A DNA stretch of 64,000 bases, taken from NCBI GenBank assembly GCA_015039365.1, contig WION01000237.1, positions 18,421 to 82,420 of the forward strand, written 5' to 3'. Source of the DNA: Amanita rubescens (Eukaryota > Basidiomycota > Agaricomycetes > Agaricales > Amanitaceae). This document shows positions 12,947-44,312 of the stretch, piece after piece. A program made the translations under genes and the position numbers. How positions within the stretch are numbered: position 1 is the first letter of the stretch; the number at the start of each line of letters is the position of its first letter. Under the pieces are notes generated by a model. The model was not told the origin of the DNA and made no database searches. It saw nothing but the letters and a program-made list of their open reading frames with translations.

Positions 12947-13181
12947 TGTGAAGACTTAGCCTATCGAAGCTGTAAGCACGAAAGGTAATGTCTCCAACGG
13001 AGGATGAGAGAGAGAGAGAGAGAGATCACGCGTAGATATGCGTAGTCAAAGGGTTAGAGAAATCCTACGGTAACGAGTACAAGCTCGGCTTAAGTACTCT
13101 AGTATTCTAAATATATGTAGTCAAGGAGCCTGATAAGGCTCTTACGAGTTAATATCGGTGTTTGCGGCCTCATTCTTTACA
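12947..13181 (-). repeat. 3' LTR of the gag-protease element
   Basis: 235 bp, TGT...ACA, containing a (GA)n run, matching 16,816-17,050 throughout. Confidence 0.9.
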
Positions 13182-15681: not shown

Positions 15682-16687
15682 GTTTTTTCAGTTTGGGCTT
15701 AAAGCCCGAGTAGCGCGGACCGGTCTCGAGGGGGTCAACATTCTTTCCTTTTCGTTCATAAATAGACCCGCCCTCCATTTCGGTAGTCAGCCTAGGAGAC
15801 GAGGCTCCCTTTTTTGTCTCTTCGTCTCCAAGCTCTAGTATGACAGCCATAACATGAATTGGTTCATATTCCATATCAGATATGTCTCGTAGTTTACTTA
15901 ATAATTCATCTACGAGGTCTTCGTCATCACTGGTATCAATTTCAGGTAAACGAGGAGGCTCGATGCTCGCCCGAGTGGGGAGGTATTCAACTTTGTAGTC
16001 GTCCTCACTCAGTTGGTTATCACGGGGTCCCAGTTGAGCCTCGTCGTCGCTCGACTCGTGTTGTTGTAGTCGGCTTAGGTTGGGGTGGAGGACGAGAGAC
16101 CCGCCCTCCATTTCGGCCCCAGATTTAGCCACGAGATTATCACTCAAGTGGGCTGATAACTCCTCGGGGACGAGCCCGCTGCTCGAGTCCCTAGCCGCGA
16201 GCTCACCGCTCAAGCGATACTTCTCGGGGACGAGCTCCCCGCTCGAGTCCCTAGTCGCGAGCTCACCGCTCAAGCGCCACTCCTCATCCACGAGCTCACC
16301 GCTCAAGTGGGAAATGTCCTCGGAGAATTCTCGTGTCGAATTCTCCAGCGCTGGTGTCGTGAGTTGAGACTCATTTGGGTTGTCAAGTTTTTCGACGATA
16401 CGCGTGACGTGGCAGTAAAAGTCGGCGATGTGTCGATTCAACGGGGAGTCGTGTACCGGCTCCCGTCGCGCCTGTCCAGCGGGCGTCTGTCTCGGATTTT
16501 CGGAATCGTCACCCCATTTATTACCTAGGTCATTAGTGGCAAAACCTACGTCGGATCGGGTCACGACGTTGTGTGTCTGGTATCGCGACTTGCGGTGACT
16601 GGATGCTGTCTCTAGTTCCTTGGCCAGGTTCCCGGGCATGGCGCAAAGGTCGCTGTCGACTGATTTTGTAGTTCTTCTCGTTGTCAT
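15653..16687 (-). CDS. Leader ORF of the gag-protease element
   Basis: 344-codon frame from an ATG 128 nt inside the 5' LTR. The product is strongly acidic, with internal repeats: LSGEL occurs several times (WRLSGELATRDSSGELVPEK and related), and EMEGGS occurs twice here and once more in the downstream gag frame. The shared EMEGGS motif argues that both frames once formed, or still form, one polyprotein. No enzymatic motif is seen. It ends LKKLEKKESLGV, at an A8 run where the downstream frame begins in the +1 register. Confidence 0.75.
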   Translation of the reverse strand: MTTRRTTKSVDSDLCAMPGNLAKELETASSHRKSRYQTHNVVTRSDVGFATNDLGNKWGDDSENPRQTPAGQARREPVHDSPLNRHIADFYCHVTRIVEKLDNPNESQLTTPALENSTREFSEDISHLSGELVDEEWRLSGELATRDSSGELVPEKYRLSGELAARDSSSGLVPEELSAHLSDNLVAKSGAEMEGGSLVLHPNLSRLQQHESSDDEAQLGPRDNQLSEDDYKVEYLPTRASIEPPRLPEIDTSDDEDLVDELLSKLRDISDMEYEPIHVMAVILELGDEETKKGASSPRLTTEMEGGSIYERKGKNVDPLETGPRYSGFKPKLKKLEKKESLGV

Positions 16688-17590: not shown

Positions 17591-18055
17591 TCGGTGAGCT
17601 TCATCTGGTTTGCTTTAAACTTGGCCCAATCTCCCACAGGATATATCAACTTTGCATCAACTTTGCATGTTTCTTCTGGATCCGCAGATCCGAATTCAAC
17701 TTCGGATTTTTTTTTTGTAGTTCTACTAGCGTGTACGCATCGTAGTCCGTTTGAATTGACTCTTGTTGGCCAACGGATTCTCTGACTTTGTAACGACCTA
17801 GTGTCTGTTTACTGTTCGATGGGAAGAAAAGGATTCGACTTTGAAGGGCGCGCAACTGGTTAAATTAACCCTCGTCCTGTCTTGACCTCCCTAGCTTTCC
17901 AACGTCGTCTCTGTATAGCTGCGACGACCAGCTTACTTTGTCCCGTCCCATGCAAGGCCCAACCGTAGTTTTCCACACGCACGGTACATGCGCAGCGCAT
18001 TTGCTTCAAAACCTTAACTGTGGCGGTGCCCAATTCCGCCTCGGTCACGCCAGCG
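17591..18055. other. Intergenic region and DnaJ leader
   Basis: It starts with the 3' region of the small gene, which has a T-rich tract near 17707. The segment from about 17,890 onward is the DnaJ upstream region that recurs in degenerate form at 12,056. Confidence 0.5.
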
Positions 18056-19725
18056 ATGTCACACAACGGCACGACCATGGACCCTCTACCCTCCCGACCA
18101 ATCGAGCCTCACCTCCCCACCCGCTGTCCAAATTCTACCTGCAACACCCACCTTGAATTCCGTATACCATCTCCACCACCACCACCACGCTTTCCTCTCA
18201 AAATCCGCTGCTTCGCTTGCAAAACCATCTTCACCTCTCCATTCAACCCTACCCAACCCGAACCTCCCCCTCGCCCTCGTTCATCCGAGTCCTCCTCCTC
18301 ACCTTCCACACCACTCAATGGCTATTCTACAAAACCACCATCATCATCATCCACACCCGCGCGTAAATCCCGAATGATCGGCACCCAAGAAAAACCCTTG
18401 GAAACCGAATACTACGACCTCCTAGGCCTAACCCCCACTTCCACCCAAGACGACATCAAACGCGCCTACCGCCGCCTCGCCATCAAACACCACCCAGACA
18501 AAAACCTTGACGACCCCACCGCCTCTGAACGATTCAAGAAAATCTCCATCGCTTACCAAACGTTATCGGATCCTGAACTCAGGAGGCGTTATAACGAGTT
18601 GGGAGCGAAAGCTGGGACGCCGGAGGGAGGGTATGTTGACCCTGAACAGGTGTTTAGTGCGTTGTTTGGTGGCGACAAGTTTGTGCCGATTATTGGGAGT
18701 ATTAGTTTGGCGAAGGAGATGAAGGCGGCGATGCAAGAGGCTGGGGGAGAAGATGATGATAATGAAGAGGATGCCAGTGCTGTTGCTGCGGGTGGAGGTG
18801 CGAAGTTGGACGTTAGCAAGCAGGCAGGGGAGAAGAATTCGAAACGAGATTCAAAGGTGTTGTCTCCGGAGGAAAGAGCGGCGCGGGATGAAAAGGCGAG
18901 AAAGAAGTCGGCGGAAAGGGCGGCGGTGAGAGAAGAACGGGTCTCGAAACTTTTTGAGAACCTTGAACGCAAAGTGGCTATATTCACGGAGATCGCTGCG
19001 GGTCCGAACGACAGGGATATGCTCAATGGTTATAAACAGATGTGCGAGCTAGAAGCCGAGTACGTCTGTCTTCCCGACTTATTTTCTGATTTTTTACACA
19101 ACGTCCAACCAGTGACCTCGTCCACGAATCGTATGGCTACGAACTTTTACAAACGATCGGTTTCGTCTACGCCTCCAAAGCCAAACACTTCCTCGCCACT
19201 CACCAAACCTTTTTCGGCGTCGGTGGATGGATACACAACGTCCAATCTAAATACCACGTATTTTCCGAAACCGTATCTACCCTTCGTTCCGCAATCGAAC
19301 TCAAAGCCGTGTTTGACCAACTCCAAGCGGCTGAAAAGGCAGGCGGACTTTCCCCAGAGGAGAGGAAGAAACTCGAAGAGCAAGCTGCGGAAAAGGGCGT
19401 TCAAGCCTTGTTCAAAGGGACCAAATTAGAAGTGGAGAGCGTGTTGAGGGAAGTTTGTGATAGGTTATTGGATGCTGGAGCGGGGAGGGATAAGGTATTG
19501 TTGAGAGCGATCGCGTTGCAGATTTTGGGGGAGGCGTATATGGCTGTCAAGAAGGATCCAGATGCGCCTGGGTTGGGTACGGGGTTGGGTGGGATGGCGC
19601 AGTCTGGACAGGGTCGGGCGCAAGGGTCGGCGGCGAGTTCGGCGCGCGGAAATGGGATGGGAGATGATAGTGAGTATGTCAAGGTAGAGACGAAGGCGAG
19701 TAGGGAGCGTTCGGGCCGGAGGTGA
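18056..19725 (+). CDS. DnaJ/Hsp40 co-chaperone, Caj1/Djp1 type
   Basis: Two exons (18056-19059 and 19113-19725) around a 53-nt GT-AG intron; 538 residues. The N-terminus has a zinc-ribbon-like pair, C-x4-C (CPNSTC) and C-x2-C (CFAC), then a proline/serine-rich linker. The J-domain starts at YYDLLGLTPTSTQDD and carries the HPD signature in AIKHHPDKNLDDPTASERFK (about residue 145). A mixed-charge stretch follows, then a DnaJ-X-type C-terminal domain (GYELLQTIGFVYASKAKHFL, later GWIHNVQSKYH). J-domain plus DnaJ-X is the architecture of yeast Caj1 and Djp1, class C Hsp40s that stimulate Hsp70; Djp1 helps deliver peroxisomal and mitochondrial proteins. This is the only intact copy here. Its 5' part recurs at 12,056, and longer broken copies lie at 33,539 and 36,745. 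Confidence 0.9.
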
Positions 19726-20099: not shown

Positions 20100-23000
20100 A
20101 TGTCCGAGGCGAATAGCAGTGCGTTCTATGCACGTCGGTACACATAGTAACGATGATTAATTTTAAGTCACAGATCTTATTGATATGCTCAAGGAGCGAT
20201 ACAACTGCCCTTATTTTCGCATTCTTGTCATTGGGAGGGCAAATGCAGGCAAGACTACTATTCTTGAGAAAGTTTGTGGTGTAGCAATGGGCACAAAACC
20301 CATTGTCTACCATCAGGACGATAGTGACCTTAAACGTAATACATCTTTTGCACATCAAGCATTTTTTGCTTAAAATTTAATGTTAGAACCTTTGGACATC
20401 CATCTGGCTCCAACAATTGAGGTGAGTCGACTCATTTGGTAGCTAGCCCCTCCATTGAGACATAATCAATATCCAGAGAGGCATACATGATATTGAAGAC
20501 CAAATTACATACCCTGGAAGCAATTTCATCTTCCATGACTCGCAGGGGTTTGAGGCTGGTAATAATAGGGAACTTGAAGATGTCTGGAAATTCATTGAGA
20601 GGAGATCTGCTTCAACTACAACAAGGCAGCAGTTGCATATGATTTGGTATTTTGTACTCTATTTTTATGGGGCTGGCAAGCTTAACTGCCACAGGTACTG
20701 CATACCTATGGAAGGGTCTCGCCCTATTCAATCTGAAGAGCTCAAATTCTTCACTAAAGGAATTGGGGAAGGTACTATGCAAACCACCAGGCATAAAATT
20801 GGATTACTGACCAGAAGAGGCCCACAGTTCCTTTGGTGGCAATATTCACCAAATTTGATGCACAAATTATCAAGGAATATGTGCAATTAAATGACATGGA
20901 AGATGATGGAGATAAGTGGTACAAGGCCAAGGAGAATGCTGAAGACACTTTTCAGAGAGTATATCTCCCCAAGGTCATGAAAACTGGATATCCTCCTAAG
21001 ACATATGTACACTTGGAAGGTGAGAATGACAACATTTGATCATTTAAAGGGAGAGATAATCATGGTTGGAAGATATGGATATGCCAGAGACAGACTGTCA
21101 TGAACTGACTGCAATATCAGCTGCTGCAATTGATGACCCCAGTCTTAACAGGCTGTTTGTATCAACACAAATGAACAATCTTGATCTTTGTGTCAAGTCA
21201 GCTGTTAAGTGAGGATCTTATTGTAGGACCAGTTTTAAAGTTTCATGGCTTCCAGATTTTCCTTGGGTGCAAGTGGTTTGGACTATGTTGTTCATCTTGC
21301 ATTCAATAGCTTTCCTCATTATTGGGTGAGTTTTGAATACTTTGATATGGACAACAACTTACCAATGAGTCAAAGTTCCAAAGAACAGTAAGTATGTATG
21401 ATCAATGGATAGCAGCACTAAAACTTATTCTCTAGAATGTGAGTATGCTGATACATTATTCCATGATTTTGCTAAATGCTAAAATTAATAGGATGTATGT
21501 GATTTGCACATATCTACCATTGAATGCTACTACAAATCTCTAAGCATGTTTTGATGAAAGTGAGTGTCACTATAGTTGCACCTGCAATAAGTCTGATTCA
21601 ATTGGTAACAGTGGGTAGGCAAAATTAGACCATATTTTGCAATCACTTATGATCATATGAGCAACAGGAAGTGAGTGACACCATCTTTCCCTGGAAGGCA
21701 AATTCATCTCATGGCCAACAGGATGTATGTTACATACATTGCACCTTTCTTTTCAGGTAATTAGCTTATTGTATCTATTCTCAAACAGAGAAAAGTGGGT
21801 GAAAACACATCTCTTTAGATCTGCATTTTGAATTTTATGACAAATAGGAAGTTGGTGACCATGCAATATCATTGGGCAAATTGTTTAATGATTTGGTCCA
21901 TAAATACATAATAGCGTGTGAGTGACAGTGTATTCTATTCTCTTGGGTAATTGTGCCCTAACTGGTTGCCAACAGTCTGTGAGTGGAACTACATCTCAGT
22001 CTTCATACAGACAATGTCATACATAATATTCATTCCCATCCAACAGTCTGTGAGTAGCTCTCTCTACACTTCACCTCCAAGGCAGTCTATCATGTGATTC
22101 ATATGTTATTTTATGACCAACAGAAGGTAAGTAACACAGAAGCTTATTTATATGCAGAAAGTCACACCTTATTTCTTCTGGGATCAAAAGTTTGTAAGCA
22201 ACATTGAACTTCTTTCTCAGAATTCCAACACATTTCTCACCATGACCAACAAGAGTGTGAGTACACCACAATTTGTTCTACTGATCAGCTTTTCATCTCA
22301 TACCACAACCAACAGAAAGTGAGTGGATGCTGCACTCTTACCTATCAGAAACTTTATCATGCATGACCAAAAGGGAGTAAGCAGCATTTAGTCATATGTA
22401 TCAAGTGATGTCATAAAATCTTATCTTACAATGAACAGAGTGTAAGTGACTTTTTCTTCCAGGCATCTCATCAGATCTTATACCATATTTGGCAGGTTGT
22501 GAGTAACATTATGCCTTTATCTCTTTATCTTACTTGATTTCATGATAAGGAGAGTGTGAGTGAAAGGACAGCTTCAACAAGTCTGATCTCTTATCTTCTA
22601 ATGATAAACAGAAAGTGAGCAATACTGCACTTTCATGTTGGTCTCATGAGTCATGTTATCCTATCTCACAGAATGTTAGTAATGCTGCACTTGCTTATCA
22701 ATGAACAACTCCATCTAATTTCACCTGATTGCTCACAGCCTGTGCATAACATTTAATGTTTTCATCCCAAGTAGTCATCTTGATAATAACCAACAGAAAG
22801 TGAGTAACATTGTATGTACTGCAATTTTACATATCTCCATAACCAACAGGATGCAAGTACATGTCACTTGATGTTTTGTCTCTAATCCAATGATGCCCAT
22901 AATACCACACCCATGGACAACAGGAAGCAAGTAGCTCTGTACATTACTTGCTATTGCCTCTTATCATATTTTGTGTTTACAGAATGTAAGTGTCATGAGA

Positions 23001-24221
23001 CTATCATATGTCATGTGCTTGCACCATGTCTTATTATCAACAAACAGACTGTAAGTGAGGCACTGCAATAGCAAAAAAATCATCTGACCTCATCATATCT
23101 TCTAACCAACAGGCTGTGAGTGGCCCTGACATTTGTCTGAAAATCAGTTCTGATCTTGTAATCAACAGTTTGTATGTAATGTTGTATTTCTATCCATTTG
23201 TGGCCTGATTTGATGTCCTATTATGACCGACAGGATGTAAGTTGCATTGTATTTGGCATCCCACAAGCTATCCTAATTTATTTCATGGCTGATAGGATGT
23301 GAGTGTTGCCATCATTTATTTGCTATTCAATCTTACTAGATCAATTCCAACAGGTTGTGAGTGATATGGCAAATTTTCTGCTGATAGATCTGATAATAGG
23401 GTCAATAGGATGTGGGCTTGAATGCATCTTTGTTTTTGTACAGATTATTGATTCAATTATCAATAGAAGGTGAGTAAGATGATATTTCCACATGGAATTT
23501 ATCTCATAATTAACAGAAAGTGGGTGTTGGTGCAGTCTCATCACCATCACCATCTCATGGTCATAGATTGTGAGCAACATTGGATTTCTGAAATAGAATA
23601 TTTCCATAAGGATATTACAGAATGTAGGGGAAAATATTGTCCTTTCTGGGGTCAATCTTTATGTTTCCTTCACAGATGGTGCAGCTCTATTTTAATTTTT
23701 CCATAGCTGTTCCCTCACTTTTCCTATGTCCTAGGTGAGCAGTGATGTACACATCACATCATCAGAGACATTCTAACCTGCTTTAGGTTGTAGGTCATTC
23801 ACTGAACTGAACTTGGAAATATTGCCTATCATGATTCACCTCCTCAGGGCCAACTTTGTGATCTGTTTGACTTTGGAGAACAAGCAAAAGATTTCAGTGA
23901 GACAGTGAGACTATCAATACATATCTTGCTGTTTAAAAGTTCTCACCCTTGAACCAGCCCACATGCTATCAAATTATAGCAGGTAGTAAGATGCACTGTT
24001 CTGTATTTTCCCTCAATTAAGAATTCACAGCAAGTGTCATCATTGCCAAGAAATCATTTTGGATAAAAAAGCCACTTATTGAATCAATCCCAGAAGCTTT
24101 TAATCACTTCAAGAAAGCTGGAAGTGTTGATAAACTGAAGGCTAGAATCAAATCAGAATATCTTCCACATGATCATCAAGATTTAATTGAATTTTTATAT
24201 GATATAATTAAGGATTTCTGA
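20100..24221 (+). CDS. P-loop GTPase copy A with a single-codon exon array
   Basis: Exons 20100-20133, 20174-20335, 20387-20421, 20477-20646, 20695-20771, 20828-21019, 21073-21208 and 21256-21325 join with every phase consistent (876 nt, 292 codons). GTPase motifs: G1 GRANAGKT in FRILVIGRANAGKTTILEKV; G3 DSQG in NFIFHDSQGFEAG; G4-like TKFD in LVAIFTKFDAQ. This matches the G-domain (MMR_HSR1-like) proteins expanded in Agaricomycetes. After the FPHYW exon the gene enters the array described at 21,326-23,706. Downstream lie an exon reading QLCDLF and a last exon reading IIAKKSFWIKKP and ending IKDF at 24,221; both are shared with copies B and C. I could not connect the array to the last exon in phase (the last exon needs entry after one base), so the C-terminal splice model is unresolved. 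Molecular role beyond GTP binding is unknown. Confidence 0.65.
21326..23706 (+). repeat. Array A: ~39 small introns separated by single-codon candidate exons
   Basis: A succession of units of about 60 bp, each with an acceptor (mostly CAACAG), three bases, then a donor (mostly GTGAGT or GTAAGT). Triplets read in order from 21,436 include AAT, GAT, TGG (21,612-21,614), GAA, GAT, a six-base AGAAAA (21,789-21,794), GAA, CGT, TCT, TCT, AAG and so on to ATG just before 23,690. Two donors are GC (after GAT near 22,853 and GAA near 22,927). Apart from the first candidate unit, which reads TAA, no triplet is a stop. The array starts in phase 0, so each triplet would be one codon. Introns are AT-rich and poor in CpG. 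Confidence 0.75.
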
Positions 24222-25003
24222 TTGCTCAAATGCCACTACAGAATATTGTATTAACTGCTTGCTAGTGTGCATCTGCTAGTACCCACCTGTTCTATTTGTG
24301 CTAGCATATTTTCCTTCCTACATCATGTGACATGCTTCCATAAGTTTGTACTATGAGTCTCATCAATTCTGTAATGTTAGCAGAAACTTCTTTTGATGTA
24401 AGTTTTCAATTTCAGGTGAAAAAGGTGGCTAGTTTGAGAGGCTGTTGCTTATAAATAATGCTGAATGGACCTGTAGTCCCCTGATGGTTCCATGGTGGAC
24501 TCAAATCCTCCAATTTGTGTATTCTTCTGGGTCCCAACTCCAGTGTTGTACTACACCTTGAATGTAAGCCTGCTTTACCAGTTCATCCATTGGGGTTTAT
24601 TTACACATGATCATGACATGATGAGGGATTATACTACTTGTGCAGATGGGTTTTGTTGCCCACTGTAGTTATGGGTTACTTTTGGTCTTGTGCTGTGGCA
24701 TGGTAGTCCACTGTCATCATATGCACCTAAATATCAAATTTGTTTCTTGGACCCTCCATGAAGTTTTTGCTCAATTTTTCCAAATGTACTGTGAATTCAT
24801 AGACTTACAGTTCAAGTCTATGACCCCAAATTACTGATTTTTTCACCTCAACTTGTTGAACAGTGAACTTAGCTATCATCAAAACAAGTATACAAGAGCT
24901 AATAAAAGCAAAGTGAAAGAACCAATGAAATGGAAGCATGTAGGAAGGAAATAGTATCATGGTAAAAACAGTACTGGTAAAGCCCTGAAGTGGCATTGAG
25001 CAA
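24222..25003. other. Centre of the inverted DnaJ-GTPase duplication
   Basis: GTPase A and B converge here tail to tail. Their 3' flanks match in inverted orientation for a few hundred bases with increasing divergence. An inverted repeat, CATAGACTT (24,798-24,806) and AAGTCTATG (24,814-24,822), lies near the right side. No coding frame with motifs was seen. Confidence 0.5.
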
Positions 25004-28000
25004 TCAGAAATCCTTGATTTGATCATATAAAAATGTAATCAAATATTGAGGATCAGATGGAAGACATTTGGCATTAATTCTGGTCTTCAGTTTTTCAACA
25101 TTTCCATCTTTCTTGAAGTGGTCCAAAGCTTCTTGAATTGATTCAACAATTGGCTTCTTCATCCAAAAGGATTTCTTGGCAATGATGATGGATGCTGACA
25201 CTTGTTAATTGATGAAGAAATAAGACAGAACATATTACCTGCTAAAATTTGACAACCTATGGGCTGGTTAGACAAGTGAGAACTTTTAAGACAGAAGAAT
25301 ACATATGGATGTCCTTACAGTCTTGTGAAATTTCACTGTTTGTTCTCCAAACAACTTGCAAAGTTGGTCCTAAGGAGGTCAATAGGTAAGATTCCCAAGT
25401 TCAGCTCAGCAAATAACTTACAACCTAACCAGCAGATTAAAACCTTTCTTGATATCACTTGTACATCATTGCTTACCTATGAGATCAGACAGGTAAGTGA
25501 ATAGCTGTGAAAAAATTGAAATGGTATTGCACAATCTGTGCATGAAATTAGTAGCAGAACAACAAAATATTTTCCCTCACTTTCTGTGAAATATTTATAG
25601 AAATACTGCATTTCAGAAGTCAAGACTTGCTCACAATCTGTGGCCATGAGATGGGAATGATGAGATTGCACAAGCACTAACTTCCTGTCAATTGTGAGAT
25701 GACAACCTAGTGGAAAAATGCGGTGTTACTCACATTCTTTTGATCATGAGATAATTGACATTGAAGACAAGAATGCAATGCTGCTCACATCCTGTTGATT
25801 ATAATGGCAGATCATTCAGCAGGAAGGTGCAGTATCACTCACAAGCTGTAATCATGATTGATATAATGAGACTATATATACAGGGGCATTGACACTCACA
25901 GACTGTTGGTCATGAGATAAATTAAAACAACTTGAGAGACCAAATGCAGTACAACCCACCACCTGTATATCATGATGGAACATCTGATAAAACTGGGTTA
26001 TGAATAGGAATATGTGATATCACATACAAACTATTGGTTATGATGTTGAAACTAATTTTCAGATGAAATTTCAAGGCCACTCACAGGCTGGATTTTTAAG
26101 ATGGAATCATTATGGGGTTTCTAATGCAGTATTTCACTCACCATCTATTTGTTAGCAATGAGACAGAATCACAGATGGTAGTCAGACCATGAAACTTACA
26201 GGCTGTTAGCCATGGAATGAGATGAGGTTGCAATACATATATGGAATAATATTGTAGTATCACTTACTTCCTGTTGGCCAAGGATGGTGAGCATGGATGA
26301 CAGATGAAATTTCAATGATGCTTACAACCTGTAAGTTGTCCAAATAAGAAAGTGCAGGGTAGAAAAAGTGTGTGTATAGCATACTAACTTCCTGTTGGTT
26401 ATGAGATGAAATGGCCACTTGACACAAAAGCTCAATGTCACCCACAATCTGTTAGTCATTGAATGGGATGAGTTTATCTACAGATAGGTGAAGTGCAGTA
26501 TTACATACATCCTGTGCCTGGGGTAGAATGGTATAAGATCAATATATGTACAAATGCAAGGTTACTACTCACTTTCTGTTCATAGTGGGCGATAGGGATC
26601 AAACATGCAGGTAAATTGCAGTCTTGCTCACCATGCCCTCCTTACAACGGGGTGAACTTGATAAGATTTGTCAGGAGATAATGTGAACTGTTACTCACAA
26701 TCTGTCAAACATGGGGTGAGACTTCCTGGAAGAAAAATGTCCAATTTAACTTACACTCTGTTGTAGGATGAGTTTAGATGATTGACAAAGTACAAGTATG
26801 GCCTTCCTACTCACATTCTTTTGATCATACATGATGTTTATTGCATAATAGGAAAATGCAAAGTGCCACCCACTTTCTGTTGGTCATGGTGTGAGATGGA
26901 AAGACTGTCTGACATATATGGTACTGTGATCCCTCACATTCTGTTATTCTTGGTGAGAATTCTAATGGAACTCTAATACTAAAGTTCAGTGCCACTCACA
27001 TACTACTTGTCACAAAATAAGATATGAATTCCTGGATATGAACAAATCTTGTTGCTTACACCACGCTAGCCATGGAATGAGTAGCCTTGGAGGTTGTAGT
27101 GAATGGCCACTCACATCCTATTGGATAATAATATGTAGTAAGTACATAGAAGAGGAAATGTCGATCTACTCACTTCCTGTTGACCATTAATCAGTAATAA
27201 ATCATGATAGAGACTGTTAGATGATGTTGCAGGACCACTCACACCCTGTTTTAACAGAATAAAAATGTTGATAGAGAGAGGTGTAGTGCCACCTACATCT
27301 CGCTGTTTAAGGATAGATGCAATCACAAACTACAATCTGGAAAGAAAAGTAACTTACATCCTTTGGCCATGCATTAGTTTGCTCTCTGGACAGAACTGTT
27401 GCCACTCACTTCCTGTTCCCCATCCCATAAAACTTGCAAAATGTGCACTGGTTTTGCTTACCCACTGCAATTATATGGATCAGATTTGCTTGCGGGTACA
27501 TATGAGCATTGGAGTCAGTGACACTCACTCTCATCAAAACATGCTTATTTGGGATGATTCCCACATAACCCATTACTAGTGATAAATGCTAGATATTTGG
27601 AGAATTACACACATCCTACTCATTCAGACATTCAGCAAGGCATTCATCATGAGAGGGTGATGTCTCAAACACTCACTCTCTGCAAGAAACTTTTGAGATA
27701 TCCAGTATGATTAGTGCTGCAGAGTCCTGTCCTGTCCTGTCTTTTGGCCCCGGAGGGCAGGACTGAAGACAGGACTGAAGACTGCAAGCTCAAAAGACCA
27801 GAGGACAGGACCAAGACTGCTGTAGGACAGGACTGCAGTCCTGGATCAGTCTTGGACCGGTCCTGACCAGTCTCGGACTTAATTCAGTCTCGGACCGGTC
27901 TGGACTGGTCCTGACCGGTCCTGTGCAGTCTCGATGATTAGTATATTACTATTATAAGATAAATATCTATATACTAAGTAAAGGTAACGGTGTAATCTAC

Positions 28001-31000
28001 CATGTATGGTAATTTCAATTAAAACCATCATCATAGTCTTCCGCATATAGCTCCTCCTCGTCTTTAAGTATTAGCGAAAAATCATTGAAGTCTACATCTA
28101 CCTCTTCAATAGAACGGGAATTTACTCGTGCCCAGTCAATTATATTACCTTTCCAGTTGTACTGTAGGCACTCGAGTGCCTCAATGAGATCGGGCCCAAT
28201 AGATGAGCGACGATCAGTAGTGACCTGTTTCGTGCGTGAAAAGAGTCGTTCACAGGAAACAGATGATCCGGGGATGGGCAAGATATCGAGTGCTATGCGG
28301 GCAAGGGTCGGATACCTCGTTGTATGCATCTGCCACAAATCCTACTAATTAGCACCGTTATGCTGCTCATTGATATTACACTCACAGCCCACCATTTTAG
28401 AGTATCCATCTTCTTCTTCACGTCACATAAAGGTTCCTCGACATATCGCTTGAGCTCCCCTTCCCATCCTTGTGTCACCGCCATTAAACGCCCCTTACGT
28501 GCCCGGTCGAAGTCATCGTCGTCGTCGTGATCATCGTCATCGTCATCATCACGGCGATGACAATGCTTGTTGGTATCCAGATCGATCACCTCATTCGCTG
28601 TTTGAATTGCGACGCCGAAGCGTTTCGGCCAGTATTCAGCCATCTACTATGATGTCAGCACAGATATTACTAGGTAAGAAGAGACTCACGGCTTCACGGA
28701 CAATGACCCATGCCTCTGCCTGCCAATCCTTCGCATCGTGACTTCCCGCTTGAATCTCCTCTTCCCACTCATTCCTTCCACCCCATTTCGTCTCTATGTA
28801 TTCCATTCGATAGTAGGGGTGCAATACTGTTGTCAAGGATCAGCTACTCATCAAACAACGATGGAAATGAAAAACGTACACATTGATAAGACATATACAT
28901 ACCGGCGTATTATCGAGGTTAACGTAGTACTTGTTCAATTTCGATAATCCGCTCTTGATTGCAGAGCGAAAGTCGCTGAATTTGGGGTTTGCAAGCTTGC
29001 GCTCCCATCGTGTCAAGAGGCCTTCGAGTGCGGGGATAACACGGTGCAGCGTGGGGAAGGCGTCCGATGAGAACTTCTGCTGGTATTCGTTGGCATCCTG
29101 CGAGAATATGTGAGCATCCATGAAAAGAACGCACAAACGAGTCAGTCGAGATCCATACCTCTAGTATTTCGGCACACCACGCCACCCGTTCCCATTTTGG
29201 CTCATCTAGTAAAAAAGCCGTCCATGGAATCTTCTTCACTACCTTTCCATGTTTATGAATGGTTGTTATGGGGCCAAATTTCTTATCTGCGCTCAGAATA
29301 AACAAATCAATAGGCTACAAAGATGTGTTTAAGTCCAGAAATGCAGTACTACTACCAAGAGTCCACGCACCTCGCGTAGCTTGTATGCACGCTCGCACAT
29401 GGCAAACGCAGTGCCCCATCGAGTATTACCATGCAGGGGTATCTTCAGTGGCTTATCAAAGCCATGATCGCGTTGCTGCTTTTCGAACCACTCCTTGCGC
29501 TGACCTGAAGCTTGAATCTGAATCATGCGATCGATCAGAAATCAGTCAAGTGACAAGGATGGGAAGAAGCCAAGATACCTTGACGACGAGTGTCCGGATC
29601 GTAGCGATGACATCCAGCCCGCCAATAACTAACCGATTTTCAGGCAAAGAGGGATCAAAGTCCCAGATTGCCTGCTTCGTCTCAACGACCGCCAGCTGGG
29701 TGATCTCAGACATGAAGTCTGAGATCCCCAACTGGATCACATGCGCTAGGCACCTGTATGTGGTGCGTGAAATGTGATTCATGAAGAACAAAACAACTTA
29801 ACTCACCCAAGTTGACGGGATTCTGCTGACCACTTTGTAAACCCACACCGCCTTAACACGGATGCCACCTTCTTTACTGTGGTCATGTTATTACTTGCAT
29901 TGTCCGCAGTGACGTAGCCAAGCTAAGTTGCCGAAGATAAGAAGATGGTAAGGAAAAGATTTGCTAACGCACATTGTTAGATGTTTTGGAAGTAACACCG
30001 ACACGATCCAAGAGCTTGATAACGTAGCGGCCAAGGTTGTCGCCATCGTGTGGACCGGAAATCTTGTGCATCGCGAGAACTTCTGAACGAAAAACCCAGC
30101 CGTCCGCCTTCACATCAATCCACTGGGCGCAAAGACCCAAAAATGCGGTGCTTGTGTGCGGAGCTGTCCAGGTATCCCAATTAACTGAAACATCTCCAAT
30201 GGTTTGCCGGAAGGTGAGCTTCAGATTGCTGATATATTCATTAAAGTCACTGATTATCTTGCTGCGAATTGCTGAGCGCCCTGGAAGATCTTCGCGAGTT
30301 GTTTTTGGACGCATCGTGACCAGGCAATTGGTGAAGGTGAGATCATCACCAAGGACAAGGGCCTAACCGGGGTTTAGGGTAAGGACTCAATGCGATCTTA
30401 TCGATATTAAATTACTAAGCACGTACCTCATCACTGCAGACAACATGTTTGACAATCGCGTTGAGGATGGCAGCTTGGGAGAACGCGGTCGGACCCTCAA
30501 CCTTCTGTACGACGCTGTCAAGCGTCTTTTGCGTGTGGACCGGCTTCTTCCTCTCTGCTTCATTACGCTCTCGCTCCAACACGCTCTTTGGTACCGCAGC
30601 TGGCTTTTCGGCGTACCCCTTCTCTTTGCACCGCTTTGAATACTCTTGGTAGTGGAAGGCGGCGATGTGGCGGCGGCAGCTTGTGTTACTGCCACTAAGC
30701 CAACCCGCCATCGCACCACGTTTCTTTTTAACTACGGCATCTTCTCTGCAAGAAACACGACTGGGTATGCATAAACCACTCGGTGTATCCACATGACTAA
30801 CGTACCTGCAGATTCCACACCACCGTCCCTTCTTCATATCAGAAGACCCATCGCGACGATTAAACTTGACCGTTACGCAGGTGGAGAAGATTGTCTCCAT
30901 GTCACGCGTTTTTTCGACCTTCGCCTCATGATGACCTGTGCATTCATCAGGCTCCATCTGTAAATGCGAATTAGCCTGTACGTTCGAAATGCTGACTCTT

Positions 31001-33282
31001 AATATAGAGGACTTACCTCGCTCTGAACTTCAGCATCCTCTTCATCTCCCTCAGGCGCCCTTCTTTCCTCGTCCACTTCTTCAACTAGGTTATTGCTACT
31101 CCTGTTCTCAACTTCAATTATTTCATCTTCAGAGTCTTCGGGTGTCCGGGTATAGCGACGTTTTGGTGCCGGCGTCAAGTCATCAACTTCAACATCAAGT
31201 GTTCGTTTATTGGATCTCGACGATGACGACACGGAATCTTGTGCCTCAAGAAGTCTCTGAGAGGGAACATGCTTGCGTGATGATTTGCGCAACATGGCTG
31301 ACTCCATGTCTCGTGAACGAATGAACCCAGAGGTGGGCCGACGTTTTTTATTCCAAAAAAAAGAGACTAATTACTAATTGCTAGTACACCTGAGTCGGAG
31401 TTAGGTGCGCGCACTAGTGTTGCGGCGTTAAGTCCACACAATGATCCGAAGAGCATGCCGCCTTGCACTTACTGCACCATCTACTCAACGTCTCGAACTT
31501 AAGAAGTACTATATTAAGCACTAATCGACGCGTGCCACCTTGATCTAATACTCAACACTCTGAACCTGAGCTAAGTTAGGCATCCAACACCTGAGTCTTC
31601 CGTGTAACGAGCGACGCCCACTTGGCATCACCCGTTTGATGTTTCAAACCTCTCCCATACCCCATTGAGTTATTATTAATAGTAATACACATCAGATGGC
31701 TGTCATTGCCCGGGCGCCGGTATTCAACGGCCGCTGAGTCAAGTTGTCGTCTCAAATGCCATTGCCTGCCTAAGCTTTAAGACCGGTCAGGACCGGTCCC
31801 AACCAGTCTTGGCCGGTCCTTCATTTCCCTGAGTTCCCCAGGACCGGGACCGGGACCGAGACAGGACAGCAAAAGACTGAGCTGCAGTCCCGTCTTTGAC
31901 CAGTCCTACTCCGGTCTTTGATCAGTCTCGGACCGGTCCGGGACCGGACTCTGCAGCACTAAGTATGATAAAGCATCCCCCTATACTTACTGTTCTTTTG
32001 AACTTTGAATGACTCAGCCAAAGCTGCTATCTATATCAACATATTCACAAACTCACCCAATAATGTGGGAAGCTACGTGTTACAGTCATTATAGCCTGTT
32101 TCATGCTAATCCCATCATCAATTTGGAGGCCCAGTCTGGATACTATCAAGGTTTGAAATTGATCATGAAGTATGATGCTTACTGAAGTGCTGACTTGACA
32201 CAAAGATTGAGATTGTTCATTTGTGTTGATACAAACAGCCTGTTAAGACTAGGGTTATCAATGGCAGCAGCAGATATTTCAGTAAGTTCATGACAGTGTG
32301 TCTCTGGCATATCCATATCTTCCAATCATTATTACCTCTGCATTTGTAAATGATGCAATGTTGTCATTCTCACCTTCCAAGTGCACATATGTCTTAGGAG
32401 GATATCCAGATTTCATGACCTTGGGGAGATATACTCTCTGAAAAGTGTCTTCAGCATTCTCCTTGGCCTTGTACCACTTATCTCCATCATCTTCCATGTC
32501 ATTTAATTGCACATATTCCTTGATAATTTGTGCATCAAATTTGGTGAATATTGCCACCAAAGGAACTGTGGGCCTCTTCTGGTCAGTAGTCTAATTTTAT
32601 GCCTGGTGGTTTGCATAGTACCTTCCCCAATTCCTTTAGTGAAGAATTTGAGCTCTTCAGATTGAATAGGGCGAGACCCTTCCATGGGTATGCAGTACCT
32701 ATGACAATTAAGCTTGCCAGCCCCATAAAAATAAAGTACAAAATACCAAATCATATGCAACTGCTGCCTTGTTGTAGTTGAAGCAGATCTCCTCTCAATG
32801 AATTTCCAGACATCTTCAAGTTCCTTATTATCACCAGCCTCAAATCCCTGTGAATCATGGAAGATGAAATTGCTTCCAGGGTATGTAATCTGGTCTTCAA
32901 TATCATGTATGCCTCTCTGGACATTTGTTATGTGAGGTAATAGCTACCAAATGAGTTGACTCACCTCAATTGTTGGAGCCAAATGGATGTCCAAAGGTTC
33001 TAACATTATATTTAAGCAAAAATGCTTGATGTGCAAAAGAAGTATTACGTTTAAGGTCACTATCATCCTGATGGTAGACAATGGGATTTGTGCCCATTGC
33101 TACACCACAAACTTTCTCAAGAATAGTAGTCTTGCCTGCATTGGCCCTCCCAATGACAAGAATGCGAAAATAAGGGCAGTTGTATCGCTCCTTGAGCATA
33201 TCAATAAGGTCTGTGACTTAAAATTAATCATCGTTACTATGTGTACACGTGCGCAGAACGTACTGCTGTTTGCCTCAGACAT
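25004..33282 (-). CDS. P-loop GTPase copy B, with a hAT transposon in an intron
   Basis: Inverted copy of the gene at 20,100-24,221. It starts at 33,282 (MSEANSS) and reads through LIDMLKERYNCPYFRILVIG, G1 GRANAGKT and LVAIFTKFDAQIIKEYV with exon structure like copy A. The single-codon array lies at 25,505-27,703 and continues on the far side of the transposon. The last exon starts IIIAKKSFWMKKP and ends IKDF* at 25,004. The hAT element (27,712-31,961) sits between the first and second array units, within an intron and on the same strand, so the coding part is not necessarily destroyed. Whether the ~4.3-kb larger intron is still removed cannot be seen. As in copy A, the frame from the array into the last exon was not closed. 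Confidence 0.55.
25505..27703 (-). repeat. Array B: single-codon candidate exons, inverted copy
   Basis: Read on the minus strand, the same pattern as array A: AACAG, three bases, GTRAGT, repeated about every 60 bp. Landmarks at the same ordinal positions as in A and C are TGG (27,464-27,462) and a six-base CGAGAT (27,302-27,297). Other triplets are, for example, GAA, GAT, GGT, AAA, ATT, CCT, GTT and TCT; none is a stop. A few units have lost an acceptor AG (for example near 26,630 and 27,065). Confidence 0.7.
27704..27711. repeat. hAT target-site duplication AGTATGAT, left copy
   Basis: AGTATGAT abuts the left terminal repeat and recurs at 31,962-31,969 after the right one. The 8-bp length is diagnostic for hAT insertions. 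Confidence 0.9.
27728..27935. repeat. Subterminal transposase-binding-type repeats, left
   Basis: Multiple short motifs related to GGACCGGTC, GGACTGGTCC and GGACAGGAC in both orientations; mirrored by 31,775-31,945 at the other end. Confidence 0.7.
28015..31307 (-). CDS. hAT transposase
   Basis: Minus-strand gene with about ten introns. Clear exons include 31307-31017 (acidic/serine-rich leader), 30957-30806 and 30745-30427; the first junctions keep phase. A BED-type zinc finger spans exons 2-3: WCGIC, then SNTSCRRHIAAFHYQEY. The RNase-H-like catalytic region follows: SVNWDTWTAPHTSTAFLGL with the first acidic residue, LGYVTADNASNNMTTVKK with the second, then RCLAHVIQLGISDFMSEI. The C-terminal hATC dimerisation domain reads RYPTLARIALDILPIPGSSV, followed by SCERLFSRTK, which holds the third catalytic acidic residue. 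An aspartate/histidine run (DDDDDDDHDDDDDFD) lies in a late exon. It ends in a stop at 28,015. All hallmark motifs are present and I saw no disabling stop inside the recognised exons, so it may be active. Confidence 0.85.
31775..31945. repeat. Subterminal transposase-binding-type repeats, right
   Basis: GACCGGTC-AGGACCGGTCCC, CGGACCGGTCC and related motifs repeat in both orientations just inside the right terminal repeat. Confidence 0.7.
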
Positions 33283-33538: not shown

Positions 33539-34756
33539 TCACCTCGGGCCCGAACGCTCCCTACTCGCCTTCGTTTCTACCTTGACATACTCACTATCAT
33601 CTCCCATCCCATTTCCGCGCGCCGAATTCGCCACCGACCCTTGCGCCCGACCCTGTCCAGACTGCTCCATCCCGCCCAACCCCGTACCCAACCCAGGGGC
33701 ATCTGGATCCTTCTTGACAGCCATATACGCCTCTCCCAAAATCTGCAACGCGATCGCTCTCAACAATACCTTATCCCTCCCCGCTCCAAGATCCAATAAC
33801 CTATCACAAACTTCCCTCAACACGCTCTCCACTTCCAATTCGGTGCTTTTGAACAAGGCTTGAACGCCCTTTTCAGCAGCTTGCTCTTCGAGTTTCTTTC
33901 TCTCCTCTGGGGAAAGCCCGCCTGCCTTTTCAGCCGCTTGGAGTTGGTCAAATACGGCTTTGAGTTCGATAGCGGAACGGAGGGTAGATATGGTTTCGGA
34001 AAAGACGTGGTATTTAGATTGGACGTTGTGTATCCATCCACCGACGCCGAAAAAGGTTTGGTGAGTGGCGAGGAAGTGTTTGGCTTTGGAGGCGTAGACG
34101 AAACCGATCGCTTGTAAGAGTTCGTAGCCATACGATTGGTGGACGAGGTCACTGGTTGGACGTTGTGTAAAAAATCAGAAAAAAAGCGACAGACGTACTT
34201 GGCTTCTAGTTCGCACATCTGTTTATAACCATTAAGCATATCCCTGTCGTTCGGCGTCCCAGCTTTAGCGCCCAACTCGTCATAACGCCTCCTCAGCTCA
34301 GGATCCGACAAACTTTGGTAAGCGATGGATATCGTTCAGCGGCGGTGGGGTCATTGTAGGTTTTTGTCTGGGTGGTGTTTGATGGCGAGGCGGCGGTAGG
34401 CGCGTTTGGTGTCGTCTTGGGTGGAAGAGGGGGGAAGAGGCGGTTAGGCCGAGGTCGTAGTATTCGGTTTCCAAGGGTTTTTCTTGGGTACCGATCATTC
34501 GGGTTTTACGCGGGGTGTGTGGATGATGATGATGAAGGGCCTGGTGGTGGTACCGCTGGTGGTTTTGTACTATAGCCATTGAGTGGTGTGTAAGATGAGG
34601 AGGTTGAGGATGAACGAGGGCGGGGAGGTTGAGGATGGGTAAGATTGAAGGGAGAGGCGAAGATGGTGTTGCAAGCGAAGCAGCGGATGGTGAGAGGAAT
34701 GCGTGGAGGTGGTGGTGGAGATGGTACACGGAATTCAAGGAGAATGTTGCGGGCAA
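33539..34756 (-). pseudogene. DnaJ pseudogene, inverted copy
   Basis: Inverted relative of the gene at 18,056-19,725. The 3' part is well kept (EVESVLREVCDRLLDLGAGR, KKDPDAPGLGTGLGGM). The middle has an internal deletion: the J-domain end ELRRRYDELGAKAGTP joins directly to NDRDMLNGYKQMCELEA, losing the ~130 residues between. The J-domain core is scrambled, with frame changes and rearranged proline/histidine-rich sequence (34,298-34,756). It is not functional. Confidence 0.85.
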
Positions 34757-34875
34757 AATTTGGACAGCGTGCGGGGAGATGAGGCTCGATTTACCGGGAG
34801 GGCAGAGAGTGGTCGTTATGCGACACCGTTCGTATGCACAGGCAAGAAGGGAGAGCTCAAATATTCTTGTAGTGT

Positions 34876-37596: not shown

Positions 37597-40500
37597 ATGT
37601 ATGAGGCAAAGAATGGTGTGTTTATCATCCTATTCATCCAAATTAACAGTGATGATTGATCTCAATGGGTTAAAGACCTTCTCAATATACTCAAAGAGCG
37701 ATATAAATGCTCTCATTTTCGCATTCTTGTCATTGGGAGGGCTAATGCAGGCAAGACTACTATTCTTGAGAAAGTTTGTGGTGTAGCAAAGGGCACAAAA
37801 CCCATGGTCTATAGTTGGTATGATCATGACCTCAAAAGTAATAATTCTTTTGCACATCAGGCATCTTTACTTAAAATATAATCTCAGGACCTTCCAATAT
37901 CCATCTGGCTCCAACAATTGAAGTGAGCCAAGTTGTAACTTGTTTGGAAGCTAGTCCTCCATTGATGTATAATAAATATCCAGAGAGGCATACATAATAT
38001 TGAAGCCCAGATTTCATACCAAGGAAGCAACTTCATCTTCCATGATTCACAGGGGTTTGAGGCTGGTGACAAGAAGGAACTTGAAGATGTCTGGGCATTC
38101 ATTGAAAAGAGGAGGACTGATTCAACCAGAACAAGGGAGCAGTTGCACATGATTTGGTATCTTGGGCTCTGTTTTTATGGAGATGGAAAACTTAACTACT
38201 CTAGGTATTGCATACCCATGGGGGGATCTCGCCCTATTCAATCTGAAGAACTCAAGTTCTTTACTAAAGGAACTGGGGAAGGTATGCAAACCACCAGGTG
38301 CAAAACTAGACTACCAATCAGATGAGGCCCACAGTTCCCCTGGTGGCTGTATTCACCAAATTTGATGCCGAAATTATTAAGGAATATGTGAAATTAAATG
38401 ACATGGAAGATGATGAGGATAAGTGGTGCAAGGCCAAGGAGAATGCTGAAGACACTTTTCAGAGGGTATATCTCCCCAAGGTCATGAATACTGAATATCC
38501 TCCTAGGACATATGTGCAGTTAGAAGGTGGGAGTCACAATGTTGCATCATTTAAAAGCAGAGATAATCATACATAGCCAAAGATATGGATTTGCCAGAGA
38601 CAGACTGTACTGAACTGACTGAAAAATCAGCTTCTACAATTGATGATCCAATTCTTAACAGGCTGTTTGTATCAACACAAATGAACAATCTTGATCTTTG
38701 TGTCACAACAGCATTTCAGTAAGGATGATACCTCATGATCAGTTTCAAACCTTGATATTTCCAGGCATGTCCTTAATAGAGATGGAATCAATATGCGTGA
38801 TGCTCTATGGCTTGTAACCAACAGCTTCCCACATTATTGGGTGAGTTTGGTAAATATGATGATATAGATAGGAGCTGAGGCATTCAAAGCACAAAAGAGT
38901 AAGTACTATAAGCTAGTACATGATGGCACTGGATAAATCAAAATCATCCTCCAGAACTTAGTCACAGTGAGTCTAAGCTCTGTTGAGACCTCCTTGCATA
39001 ATGAATGTCTTACTGAATGTCTAAAGGAGCAAGATGTGGTGATTATGCAATTTTTTTGCATTTACATAACATCATTGAGTCATGTGGCAATTGCCCAAAT
39101 AGCATATTTTGATGAGAGTGAGTGTCACTGATGGTACCAGCAAGCAAATCTGATTTGCATGATTGCAGTGGGTAAGCAAAGCCAGTGCACATTTTGCAAG
39201 CCTTTATCATGGCATGAACAACAGCAAGTGAGTGACACAAGCTCTTTCTGGAAGGTAGACTCACATATGGCTGATTGAAAGGGTGTAAGTTACTTTTCTT
39301 TCCAGGTTGTTAGCTTATGATTGCATTTATCCTCAAACAGCGAGGAGTAGGTGGCACGATACCTCTCTCTATCAATATTATATGACAAACAGGATGTGAG
39401 TGGTCCTGAAATGGCATTCAACAGTTACTTTCATGATCTATGTATTGCATCTAATCCTGTGAACAGCCTGTGAGTGCCATGGACTCTATTCTTTCATGGA
39501 CTCCTACTCTCATACACTAATCAATCATCAACAGCATGTGAGTAGATCCACATTTCCTTTTCCATGCAATTTCATAACTCTTATCATTGTTCAATAGTAT
39601 GTGAGTGACTCTTCACTCCAATGTCCAAGGCTATTCACTAGATCCAATCCCATGGATAACAGCCTGTAAGCAATATGCAACACAGATATTTATTTATATG
39701 CAGGGACTCACACATTCATCTCATTTTGTGACAAGTAGTATGTGAGTGGCACTGAACTCTGTTAGAGGTCCATTATATTTCTCACTTGGACTAACAGACT
39801 GTGAGGACATCACAATATCTAATTGCAAAACAGTATTTCCATCTTATACCATGACCAACAGTCAGTGAGTGGCACTTTGCAGTTTCCTATCAGGCAATAT
39901 TCATCATGTGTGATCAAAGGATGTAAGCAGTATTGTACTATACTTGATCAAATGGTCTCATCCAAACTCATCCTACAATAGAGTGTAAGTCACCTTTTTC
40001 TTCCCAGAAGCCTCTCTTACTACCCCAGATTTAACAGGTTGTGAGTAACAGTTCACATTTATCTCCAGACAGGTCTTATCTTTGTCACAAGGAGGGCCCG
40101 GGAATTGTGGTGAGCAAGACCACAATTTATCTGCATCTTTGATCTCTATTTATCTTCAATGATGGGCAGGAGGTGAGTAACCCTGCACTTGTAAATTGGT
40201 CTTACATATGTCATTTCAGGGGCAAATTGTATGTAATACCACACTTTACCTATCTATAGAGAAACCTGTCACATTCCATAACTAACAGATTGTGGGTGAC
40301 GTTGGGATTTTGTTTCAATTACTGGCCATCTCATCTCTTAACCAACAGGAAGTGAGTGAGCCACACATTTTCTGCCCTGCACTTCCCCAATAACTTACAG
40401 AGTGCAAGTATCATTGAATTTCTATTTGTGATGCATGCTTATTGCCAATAGGAAGTAAGTGACACTACATTATCTTTCCATATATTGTGATCTTACCTGA

Positions 40501-41747
40501 ACTCACAACAAACAGACTGTAAGTGTCATTGTCTGACCATCATCTGTCATGCTGTTTCAGCCTGTCTTATTGCTAACAAATAGATGGTGAGTGAGATACT
40601 GCACTAGAAACCCTATGACCTCACTTCATCATACATATTCTCAAAAATCCAGCATGTGAGTTGCCCTGAAACTTCCTTAGAAAGTTTTCATCTCATGGCC
40701 AACAGATTGTATGTGACATTATCCATCACCCAGCTTTATCAGATGTTCTGTCATGATGAGCAGCTGGTGGGTTGTACTGCATTTGTTACCTTCTAGGCCA
40801 TTTTAGTTTATCTTATGACCAACAGCAAGTGAGTCTTACTGCCCTTTATATACAGTTATTAGACCAATTTTAATTCATGAATGACAGATTGTGAGTGATA
40901 TTGCATGTCTGCTCAATGATCTGCCATCATGATCAACAGGAAGTCAGCAGTTTTTCATTTTTGTCTTCCATGTTAAGTATCACATGATCAACAGGAAGTG
41001 AGTGAAACCACATTTTCCCACCAGGCTATCATCTCATAATTAACAGAAAGTGAGTGCAATCATCAATGTGGTCTCATTATTCTCATCTCGTGGTCATACA
41101 TAGATTGTGAGCAAGTTTTAATTTCTGATATGCAATATTTTTTATGGAAACCTGACAGAAAGTGAGGGAGGAATTTTTGTTTTTCCACTACTGATATATT
41201 TCATACACAGATTGTGAAGTACCATTTCAATTTTTCCACAGCTATTCCCTTACTTGCCTGACCCCATAGGTAAGTGATGATGTACAAGTGATATCAACAA
41301 AGATTCTAACCTTCTGGTTAGATTGTATGCCATTTGCTGAATTGAGTGTGGGGATCTTGCCAATTCACACCTTTAGGACCAACTTTGCAATTTGTTTGGA
41401 GAACAATCAAGGGAATTTCACAAGACTGTAAGACCATCCACATGTGTTCTTCTGTCATAAAGATCTCAATTTCCTAACCAGCCCAAGTTTTGTCAAATCT
41501 TAGCAGGTAATATGTTCTGTCTTATTTCTTCCTTAATTAACAAGTCACAGCATGTGTCATTATTGCCAAGAAATCCTTTGGGATAAAGAAGCCACTTGAT
41601 GAATCAGTTTCAGAAGCTTTGGATCAATTAAAGAAAGATGGAAGTGTTGAAAAACTGAAGACTAGAATCAATTATGAATCTCTTCCATCTGAGCCTGATA
41701 TTCAGTGTTTCATTACATTTCTATCTGATCAAATTAAGGATCTCTGA
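37597..41747 (+). CDS. P-loop GTPase copy C with a single-codon exon array
   Basis: Third copy of the gene at 20,100, in direct orientation. It starts ATG TAT GAG (37,597) and reads on through LLNILKERYKCSHFRILVIG, GRANAGKT, the DLKR-PSNIHLAPTIE junction after a 50-nt intron, FIFHDSQGFEAGDKKELEDV, LVAVFTKFDAEIIKEYVKLN and NSFPHYW, where array C begins (38,841). The 3' exons read DQLCNLFGEQSREFHKT and, last, IIAKKSFGIKKPLDESVSEA...FLSDQIKDL* ending at 41,747. It is diverged from copies A and B throughout, which looks like an older duplicate, but its coding exons remain open. The connection of the array to the last exon is unresolved, as in the other copies. Confidence 0.6.
38841..41241 (+). 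repeat. Array C: single-codon candidate exons
   Basis: About 38 units of the same AG-NNN-GT design as arrays A and B. TGG is at 39,169-39,171 and a six-base CGAGGA at 39,341-39,346, in the same order as in the other copies. Longer candidate exons are 12 nt (38,955-38,966, AAC TTA GTC ACA), 9 nt (39,027-39,035, GAG CAA GAT), 18 nt (40,092-40,109) and 9 nt (40,220-40,228, GGG CAA ATT): all multiples of three without a stop. One donor is GC (after AGT near 40,404). Confidence 0.75.
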
Positions 41748-44311: not shown

Positions 44312-44312
44312 T

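Follow-up and report, generated by a model that had tools for sequence, protein, structure and literature searches.

Arrays of candidate single-codon exons, in some copies with near-identical short introns, in a GTPase-like gene family of Amanita rubescens

The stretch analyzed here, hereafter the window, comprises 64,000 nucleotides (nt) of the Amanita rubescens genome (assembly GCA_015039365.1, contig WION01000237.1, positions 18,421 to 82,420) and contains three members of a gene family whose protein has a GTPase-like N-terminus. In the member that we call copy A, the ordinary exons of the GTPase domain lead into a tandem array of short introns, most of them separated by a single codon; two further arrays lie in copy B, on the minus strand, and in copy C. 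Decoding of copy A gives 34 exons of exactly three nt between 21,436 and 23,569, none of them a stop codon, with a longest unbroken run of 29. The motif AG-N3-GTRNG occurs 32 times in 21,326-23,706; across 1,000 dinucleotide shuffles it averages 0.75 and never exceeds 8. The spacings N0 to N9 other than N3 occur 0-6 times each. A first-pass annotation of this DNA had proposed a tandem array of introns with single-codon exons, and that array is real; its estimate of about 39 introns and triplets comes down to about 38 introns and 34 three-nt exons, its observation that no triplet is a stop stands, and its statement that a six-base exon is the only longer one gives way to a 15-nt exon (HVLMK) matched by a protein sequence, P0002, and a likely 12-nt exon. 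The array is not the end of the gene, as one further exon and a conserved C-terminal exon follow downstream (Table 1).

Table 1. Features of the three family copies in the window.
Feature	Position	Strand	Remarks
Copy A, GTPase-domain coding region, ordinary exons	20183..21325	+	P-loop GRANAGKTT, DSQGF, TKFD, by eye
Copy A, last exon before array (...FPHYW)	21256..21325	+	
Copy A, array of ~38 introns, 34 single-codon exons and exons of 12, 15 and 6 nt	21326..23847	+	decoding incomplete in the tail, 23,570-23,847
Copy A, likely 12-nt exon FQRT	21376..21387	+	YRRT in P0002; boundary less certain
Copy A, single-codon exon AAT (N)	21436..21438	+	residue in P0002
Copy A, single-codon exon GAT (D)	21492..21494	+	residue in P0002
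Copy A, 15-nt exon HVLMK	21545..21559	+	matched by intronless P0002
Copy A, single-codon exon TGG (W)	21612..21614	+	residue in P0002
Copy A, 31 more single-codon exons and one 6-nt exon (21,789-21,794)	21668..23569	+	
Copy A, triplet starts, first half	21668 21722 21848 21915 21976 22047 22124 22191 22254 22316 22374 22439 22496 22553 22612 22672	+	
Copy A, triplet starts, rest	22739 22797 22850 22924 22983 23048 23113 23169 23234 23296 23354 23409 23467 23517 23567	+	
Copy A, exon GQLCDLFDFGEQAKDFSET	23848..23904	+	counterpart of ..LPELFSVFG..FSAT in P0007-P0009; start by eye
Copy A, conserved C-terminal exon, ..VIIAKKSFWIKK.. to TGA	24031..24221	+	boundaries by eye
Copy B, array and 3' part, interrupted by the hAT-like element	25000..32056	-	
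Presumed hAT-like DNA transposon (~4.25 kb) in an array intron of copy B	27712..31961	-	by eye
Copy C, GTPase-domain coding region ending ...FPHYW	37685..38840	+	
Copy C, array, 29 single-codon exons decoded	38841..41550	+	
Copy C, conserved C-terminal exon	41551..41747	+	boundaries by eye

To place the window copies in their genomic context, we searched the A. rubescens assembly (75.7 Mb, 786 contigs) with the GTPase exon, which gave at least 150 matches (150 scored of 339 candidates), and with the C-terminal exon, for which at least 150 matches were scored among 217 candidates; both counts are minimum figures, and near-identical copies on different contigs are among them. Ordinary exons of the GTPase-like domain lie upstream of each array, and the conserved C-terminal exon with the stop codon lies downstream. 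Beside the window copies, the sample comprised 47 further stretches and eight short loci from the GTPase-exon search. A copy could be decoded only where the FPHYW donor and the C-terminal exon were both present, as in 42 of the first 51 sequences; the eight short loci were left out, as was L024, which is without the motif though 36 motif units were seen in it. Setting aside copy B for its insertion left 41 copies, and all seven of the later loci could be decoded, bringing the total to 48. Every one of these 48 copies, copies A and C of the window among them, carries an array, with 18-85 three-nt exons each (2,330 in total) and a longest unbroken run of 8-85, and none of the decodable copies with both landmarks was without one. 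Many of the copies are related, so the family counts are not independent.

The decoder, a dynamic program, scores donors and acceptors by weight and introns by length, treats all exon lengths alike through a flat prior, and is seeded on AG-N3-GT sites; stops and protein play no part in it. Across the 41 copies it returned 2,054 exons, 1,721 of them of 3 nt and 1,862 with a length that is a multiple of three. As controls, we ran nearly the same program, its table of intron lengths slightly narrower, on 48 shuffled arrays, where 9 of 1,212 exons had three nt, and on 48 antisense arrays, where 5 of 1,137 did. Cleaner chains came from a second decoding whose prior favours 3 nt, and this one underlies the results that follow; decoding is uncertain near the array ends, where long "exons" are artefacts. 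The array introns have a median length of 61 nt, a donor consensus of GTGAGTG and a consensus of CCTATGACCAACAG over their last 14 nt, and they show the GT-AG termini, GTRAGT donor, branch motif and acceptor of U2-type introns (the decoder imposed GT and AG but left the flanking letters free). As to the protein, a Pfam scan of five family members gave MMR_HSR1 as the best match at 19.6 bits, compared with a curated cut-off of 21.9; three of the five fall just under this cut-off and P0013 has no match. A P-loop, a DxxG-like motif and TKFD were recognised by eye. Several homologs carry a precomputed PF01926, and a sequence profile search of the PDB returned one weak P-loop match only, to the GTPase Der.

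The scarcity of stop codons suggests that the triplets are coding. Among 906 triplets from 19 cluster representatives, 537 of which end in A or G, there is a single stop, as against an expected mean of 56.8 and a minimum of 40 in 2,000 shuffles of letters by position within each copy; across the 41 copies, 3 of 2,003 triplets are stops. The stop test, described as weak in the first-pass annotation, is indeed weak for one copy, but this does not extend to the family, where stop avoidance is strong. The third letter of the single-codon exons is nearly always A or T (C 1.2%, G 7.4%; 2,330 triplets), compared with 16.9% C and 20.2% G in the long exons of the same genes (3,282 codons), and the single-codon exons encode V, P, T and C less often than the long exons do (48 copies). 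As a guess, the A/T bias might reflect avoidance of new AG acceptors and loss of CpG.

The order of the codons is also reflected in intronless reading frames. JGI entries on contigs of 0.9-2.6 kb contain intronless open reading frames (ORFs) of the family of up to 478 amino acids, which are most likely complementary DNA (cDNA) of related fungi with a metatranscriptome origin. In P0007-P0009, the GTPase domain continues through 79-96 residues into the C-terminal exon. Candidate array-encoded segments of the family include WFEQGKKETDREIKY and KERDKRQQF. When peptides built from the single-codon exons only were compared, for 41 copies, with the tails of 14 JGI ORFs, no more than 10 of 1,000 order shuffles scored as well for 28 copies, and none did for 26 of those. 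The 50 single-codon residues of L025 (one a stop) align to P0009 with one gap, and L017 and L031 align along P0010. P0002 reads FPHYW-YRRT-N-D-HVLMK-W-D-S-D, as compared with FQRT-N-D-HVLMK-W-E-D in copy A, and covers only the first units of the copy A array. Its end is DVNYFTFPVVSL, and copy C read through the intron after the codon at 39,282 gives GVSYFSFQVVSL and a stop; similarly, the end of P0013 has IVRFHFRGSPNPTSC, and L036 yields IVRFHFSSPTPTSC when it is read through close to the end of its array. Tails with shuffled letters (48 copies, three frames) matched as well in 0 of 200 cases for P0013 and 2 of 200 for P0002. These two ORFs are without most introns and appear to keep one, as would be expected of partly spliced RNA. 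The presence of residues in array order supports, on sequence grounds, retention of the micro-exons in mRNA at the level of the family rather than for copies A and C alone. The first-pass annotation had offered two readings, literal splicing of single codons or units that are skipped or removed recursively, and for the family the intronless ORFs, the stop avoidance and the retained-intron tails support the literal one.

The annotated A. rubescens models examined do not show the segment: P0001 and P0003 (the latter compared with copy A) break off at the array or ahead of it, and P0036 skips it. P0001, which is the annotated protein F5887DRAFT_1103439, labelled "partial", corresponds to copy C up to FPHYW. 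Region searches with the array parts of P0008 and P0013 matched JGI entries only, two each, with the query among them. Two more distant GTPase-like JGI ORFs, P0111 and P0115, have very different low-complexity E/H/Y/L/R segments at the equivalent place, and these are perhaps also built from codon arrays.

The arrays differ widely in the likeness of their introns. The old type is seen in copies A and C, L009, L012, L017 and L039, where the introns of a copy are on average 53-57% alike, whereas many introns of young arrays are nearly identical; L047 is resolved by Tandem Repeats Finder (TRF) as a 65-nt tandem repeat of 71 copies. The 33 main-length introns of L032 have a mean identity of 0.991, and 300 of their 528 pairs are identical, yet only 42 of those 300 pairs share a codon, which equals the expectation from composition (0.14). 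Main-length intron identity is 0.967 in L047 and 0.972 in L038. Taking more than 80% unit identity with hypervariable sites as the mark of high internal conservation, L032, L047 and L038 show it, with the difference that their repeated unit is intronic, and copies A and C, at 0.57 and 0.56, do not. One exact 62-nt intron was counted in 180 units of seven copies (four of which make up two near-identical pairs), preceded by 16 different codons. It has 410 matches in the genome, and among those listed (40 of 158 candidates scored) all lie in or beside family genes, including two at contig ends just upstream of the C-terminal exon.

In comparisons between young arrays, too, nearly identical introns can surround unlike codons. 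L032 and L053, which share flanking introns, differ at 21 of 2,086 positions of the intron interiors, 4 of 364 in donors and 10 of 689 in acceptor stretches, and at 29 of 44 codons. L032 and L052 differ at 5 of 2,245 interior, 5 of 769 acceptor-stretch and 0 of 385 donor positions, and at 5 of 49 codons; the codon changes fall in two runs, and some alter two or three bases of the codon (CGA to ATC, CTA to GCA). Between L047 and L054, a single interior position of 3,618 and no codon differ, and the arrays are set apart by a gap of one whole 65-nt unit and another of 7 nt. The codons of L047 recur at lags 9 and 18 above chance, to a degree that 0 of 2,000 permutations reached, which suggests block duplications. 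Among the window copies, codon positions 1 and 2 changed at 13 and 6 of 25 between B and C (introns 277 of 1,189), at 13 and 12 of 26 between A and C (introns 450 of 1,193) and at 12 and 11 of 27 between A and B (introns 429 of 1,140); position 1 has thus changed faster than the introns and position 2 about equally or faster, as a description of small numbers.

The probable explanation, in our judgement, is a protein-coding family in which each exon for one segment of a GTPase-like protein supplies a single codon, in a minisatellite of codon cassettes with intron homogenisation. Each unit would consist of a complete short spliceosomal intron, with donor GTGAGTG and, in its last 14 nt, a branch-like TGAC and the acceptor CAACAG, together with one codon; the spliceosome would remove the introns and join the codons in order. 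An acceptor and the next donor lie 3 nt apart, so neighbouring introns could hardly both be occupied, and removal may be stepwise or alternate. Unequal crossing-over or gene conversion inside the introns could add, drop or swap residues, and such recombination would leave the gene intact because the unit is neutral to frame and splicing. Young arrays would accordingly be tandem minisatellites with homogenised introns and diverse codons, and old arrays those in which the introns have diverged. For codon diversity to persist there would need to be selection, exchange of units from a shared pool, or a codon-directed process, of which we favour selection together with exchange; selection for diversity may act here as in the repeats of fungal NOD-like receptors. 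A further proposal, in which the introns serve as frame-neutral one-codon cassettes and a dedicated codon-rewriting process (by templated exchange of units, by reverse splicing of a single intron or by mutation directed at codons) makes the family a generator of diversity one residue at a time, seems to us unlikely.

The consequences for the protein can be considered in a predicted structure. In an AlphaFold2 model of P0009 (28 sequences, mean pLDDT 77), the GTPase and C-terminal helical parts are confident; residues 315-359 have pLDDT <50 and 361-382 form a helix, with the array-matched part at 325-375, so that it takes in a probably disordered stretch and the beginning of that helix. The array-encoded segment is probably hypervariable and disordered, lying between the GTPase fold and the C-terminal helical part, and variable length at this place may be structurally cheap. 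As a hypothesis, the family could have a role in recognition.

A number of results weigh against this explanation or limit it. The order test is weak for L046 (13 of 1,000) and L047 (20 of 1,000) and fails, with at least 90 of 1,000 shuffles as good, in 11 of 41 copies (copies A and C, L009-L011, L021-L023, L027, L026 and L033); for copy A alone, literal splicing is supported by P0002 as far as N-D-HVLMK-W, which is followed by an apparent retained intron, and not by residue order. Merging or loss of units in the flat-prior decoding left just 5 of 41 copies whose peptides outscored every one of 300 shuffles. The transcript-like support consists of JGI ORFs, most likely of related fungi, rather than A. 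rubescens RNA. Two recent pairs of old arrays show fewer changes in codons than in introns (L010/L011, 5 of 138 codons vs 161 of 1,971 intron positions; L017/L031, 11 of 147 vs 209 of 1,926), and codons that change somewhat less than introns indicate constraint, not diversification, in old arrays. A separate set of 18 pairs of old arrays was also compared. L032 has a 4-nt "exon" that looks like an error or a frameshift, and near-identical repeats can possibly be misassembled. Finally, plain concerted evolution should homogenise codons too, and selection for diversity is our suggestion as to why it has not.

Among the other explanations, the one that survives best takes the identical introns to be introner-like elements that inserted at each codon boundary, the codons being older than the introns. 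This would account for identical introns around unlike codons and for an exact intron common to several copies, but we consider it quite improbable: all listed matches of the 62-nt intron fall in arrays of one family, the middle codon strings differ between decoded paralogs, and we know of no insertion mechanism that gives an exact 3-nt spacing in one phase. We give even less credence to a codon-directed process, such as local hypermutation or templated codon replacement, that alters triplets and leaves introns unchanged. It is suggested by L032 and L052, where a tenth of the codons changed, in part at two or three bases, between almost invariant introns; yet exchange of whole units within or between arrays would look alike because the introns are identical, and the codon repeats of L047 point to block duplication. 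That the triplets are not exons at all and the array is removed as one long intron or recursively, leaving them absent from mRNA, is a very remote prospect, even though two spliceosomes could hardly find space around a 3-nt exon at the same time and the annotated models stop before the array or jump it, given the stop avoidance, the residue order in intronless ORFs and the predominance of exon lengths that are multiples of three. It is just as hard to credit that the arrays are artefacts or repeats in decay, with splice sites mimicked by pseudogenes or by minisatellites that were misassembled: the transposon in copy B, the few stops and the frameshifted unit of L032 would fit, but arrays occur in all decoded copies with stops near-absent, separate contigs agree (L047/L054, L014/L055), and old arrays with unlike introns are unlikely to result from repeat misassembly.

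The remainder of the window contains other duplicated and repetitive elements. In copy B, 30 single-codon exons were decoded beyond the insertion, the last one doubtful. The inserted element, which we take to be hAT-like, has inverted termini and an 8-bp target duplication (27,704-27,711 and 31,962-31,969, by eye); two of its ORFs were scanned against Pfam and matched nothing at E 0.001. A gene that looks DnaJ-like by eye is duplicated in inverted orientation together with the adjoining GTPase gene, copies A and B (17,969-19,725 / 33,539-34,903). A 52-bp satellite forms two large arrays in opposite orientation, at 47,149-50,696 (68 copies) and 51,591-57,388 (111 copies), with the copies 99% alike. 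At 42,554-46,511 on the minus strand there is a retroelement ORF with RNase H, integrase and chromodomain, presumably gypsy-like. An aspartyl-protease ORF lies at 13,177-15,687, and an ORF at 3,103-4,542 contains repeated coding units like KRVRTINKLEGLAILERR with a 120/126-nt period.

The proposed explanation, if true, would mean that splicing copes with dozens of one-codon exons in succession, up to 85 in the decoded runs; this sits uneasily with present views of how small an exon can be and still work, and of how adjacent introns are recognised. It would also define a new route to a hypervariable protein region, with the intron as the homogenised unit and one codon as the variable unit. Gene finders may miss such regions, as the A. 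rubescens models examined are without the segment and the region searches matched JGI entries only. The family would also be a natural system in which to study sequential splicing, the homogenisation of introns and diversification at the level of codons.

Introner elements are near-identical introns in many copies, but the listed Amanita matches are confined to the arrays of one family, at 65-nt steps, rather than scattered over genes. At recursive splicing sites an acceptor is adjacent to a donor, whereas the Amanita arrays keep three nt per step, as the intronless ORFs indicate. Isolated tiny exons, such as the 1-nt exon of Arabidopsis APC11 and the 3-nt exon of Drosophila homothorax, are reported to be spliced in (PMC4674806, PMC7392893), as are plant micro-exons (PMC8831610); those are single exons, in contrast to the dozens in a row in Amanita. 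The micro-exon genes (MEGs) of Schistosoma mansoni have consecutive micro-exons that are mostly multiples of three, resist annotation and encode variable, secreted proteins, with 10-20 short exons, most of 15 nt and a minimum of 6 nt (3 in the abstract), and introns of 0.1-5 kb (PMC10526429). The Amanita arrays have 18-85 three-nt exons, introns of ~60 nt that are in some cases near-identical repeats and a GTPase-like product, and they lack the long introns of MEGs. The high-internal-conservation WD40 repeats of the NOD-like receptors het-d and het-e of Podospora undergo concerted evolution with hypervariable sites under diversifying selection and are polymorphic in unit number (PMC12222747). 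Fungal NOD-like receptors follow in coding repeats the same evolutionary logic as is proposed for the Amanita arrays, for which a receptor role is hypothetical; the conserved unit there is coding, whereas in Amanita it is an intron and one codon is coding. In the open-access literature searched, and as far as titles and the openings of abstracts show, no account turned up of single-codon exons following one another by the tens, nor of codon cassettes with identical introns; this does not prove that none is in print.

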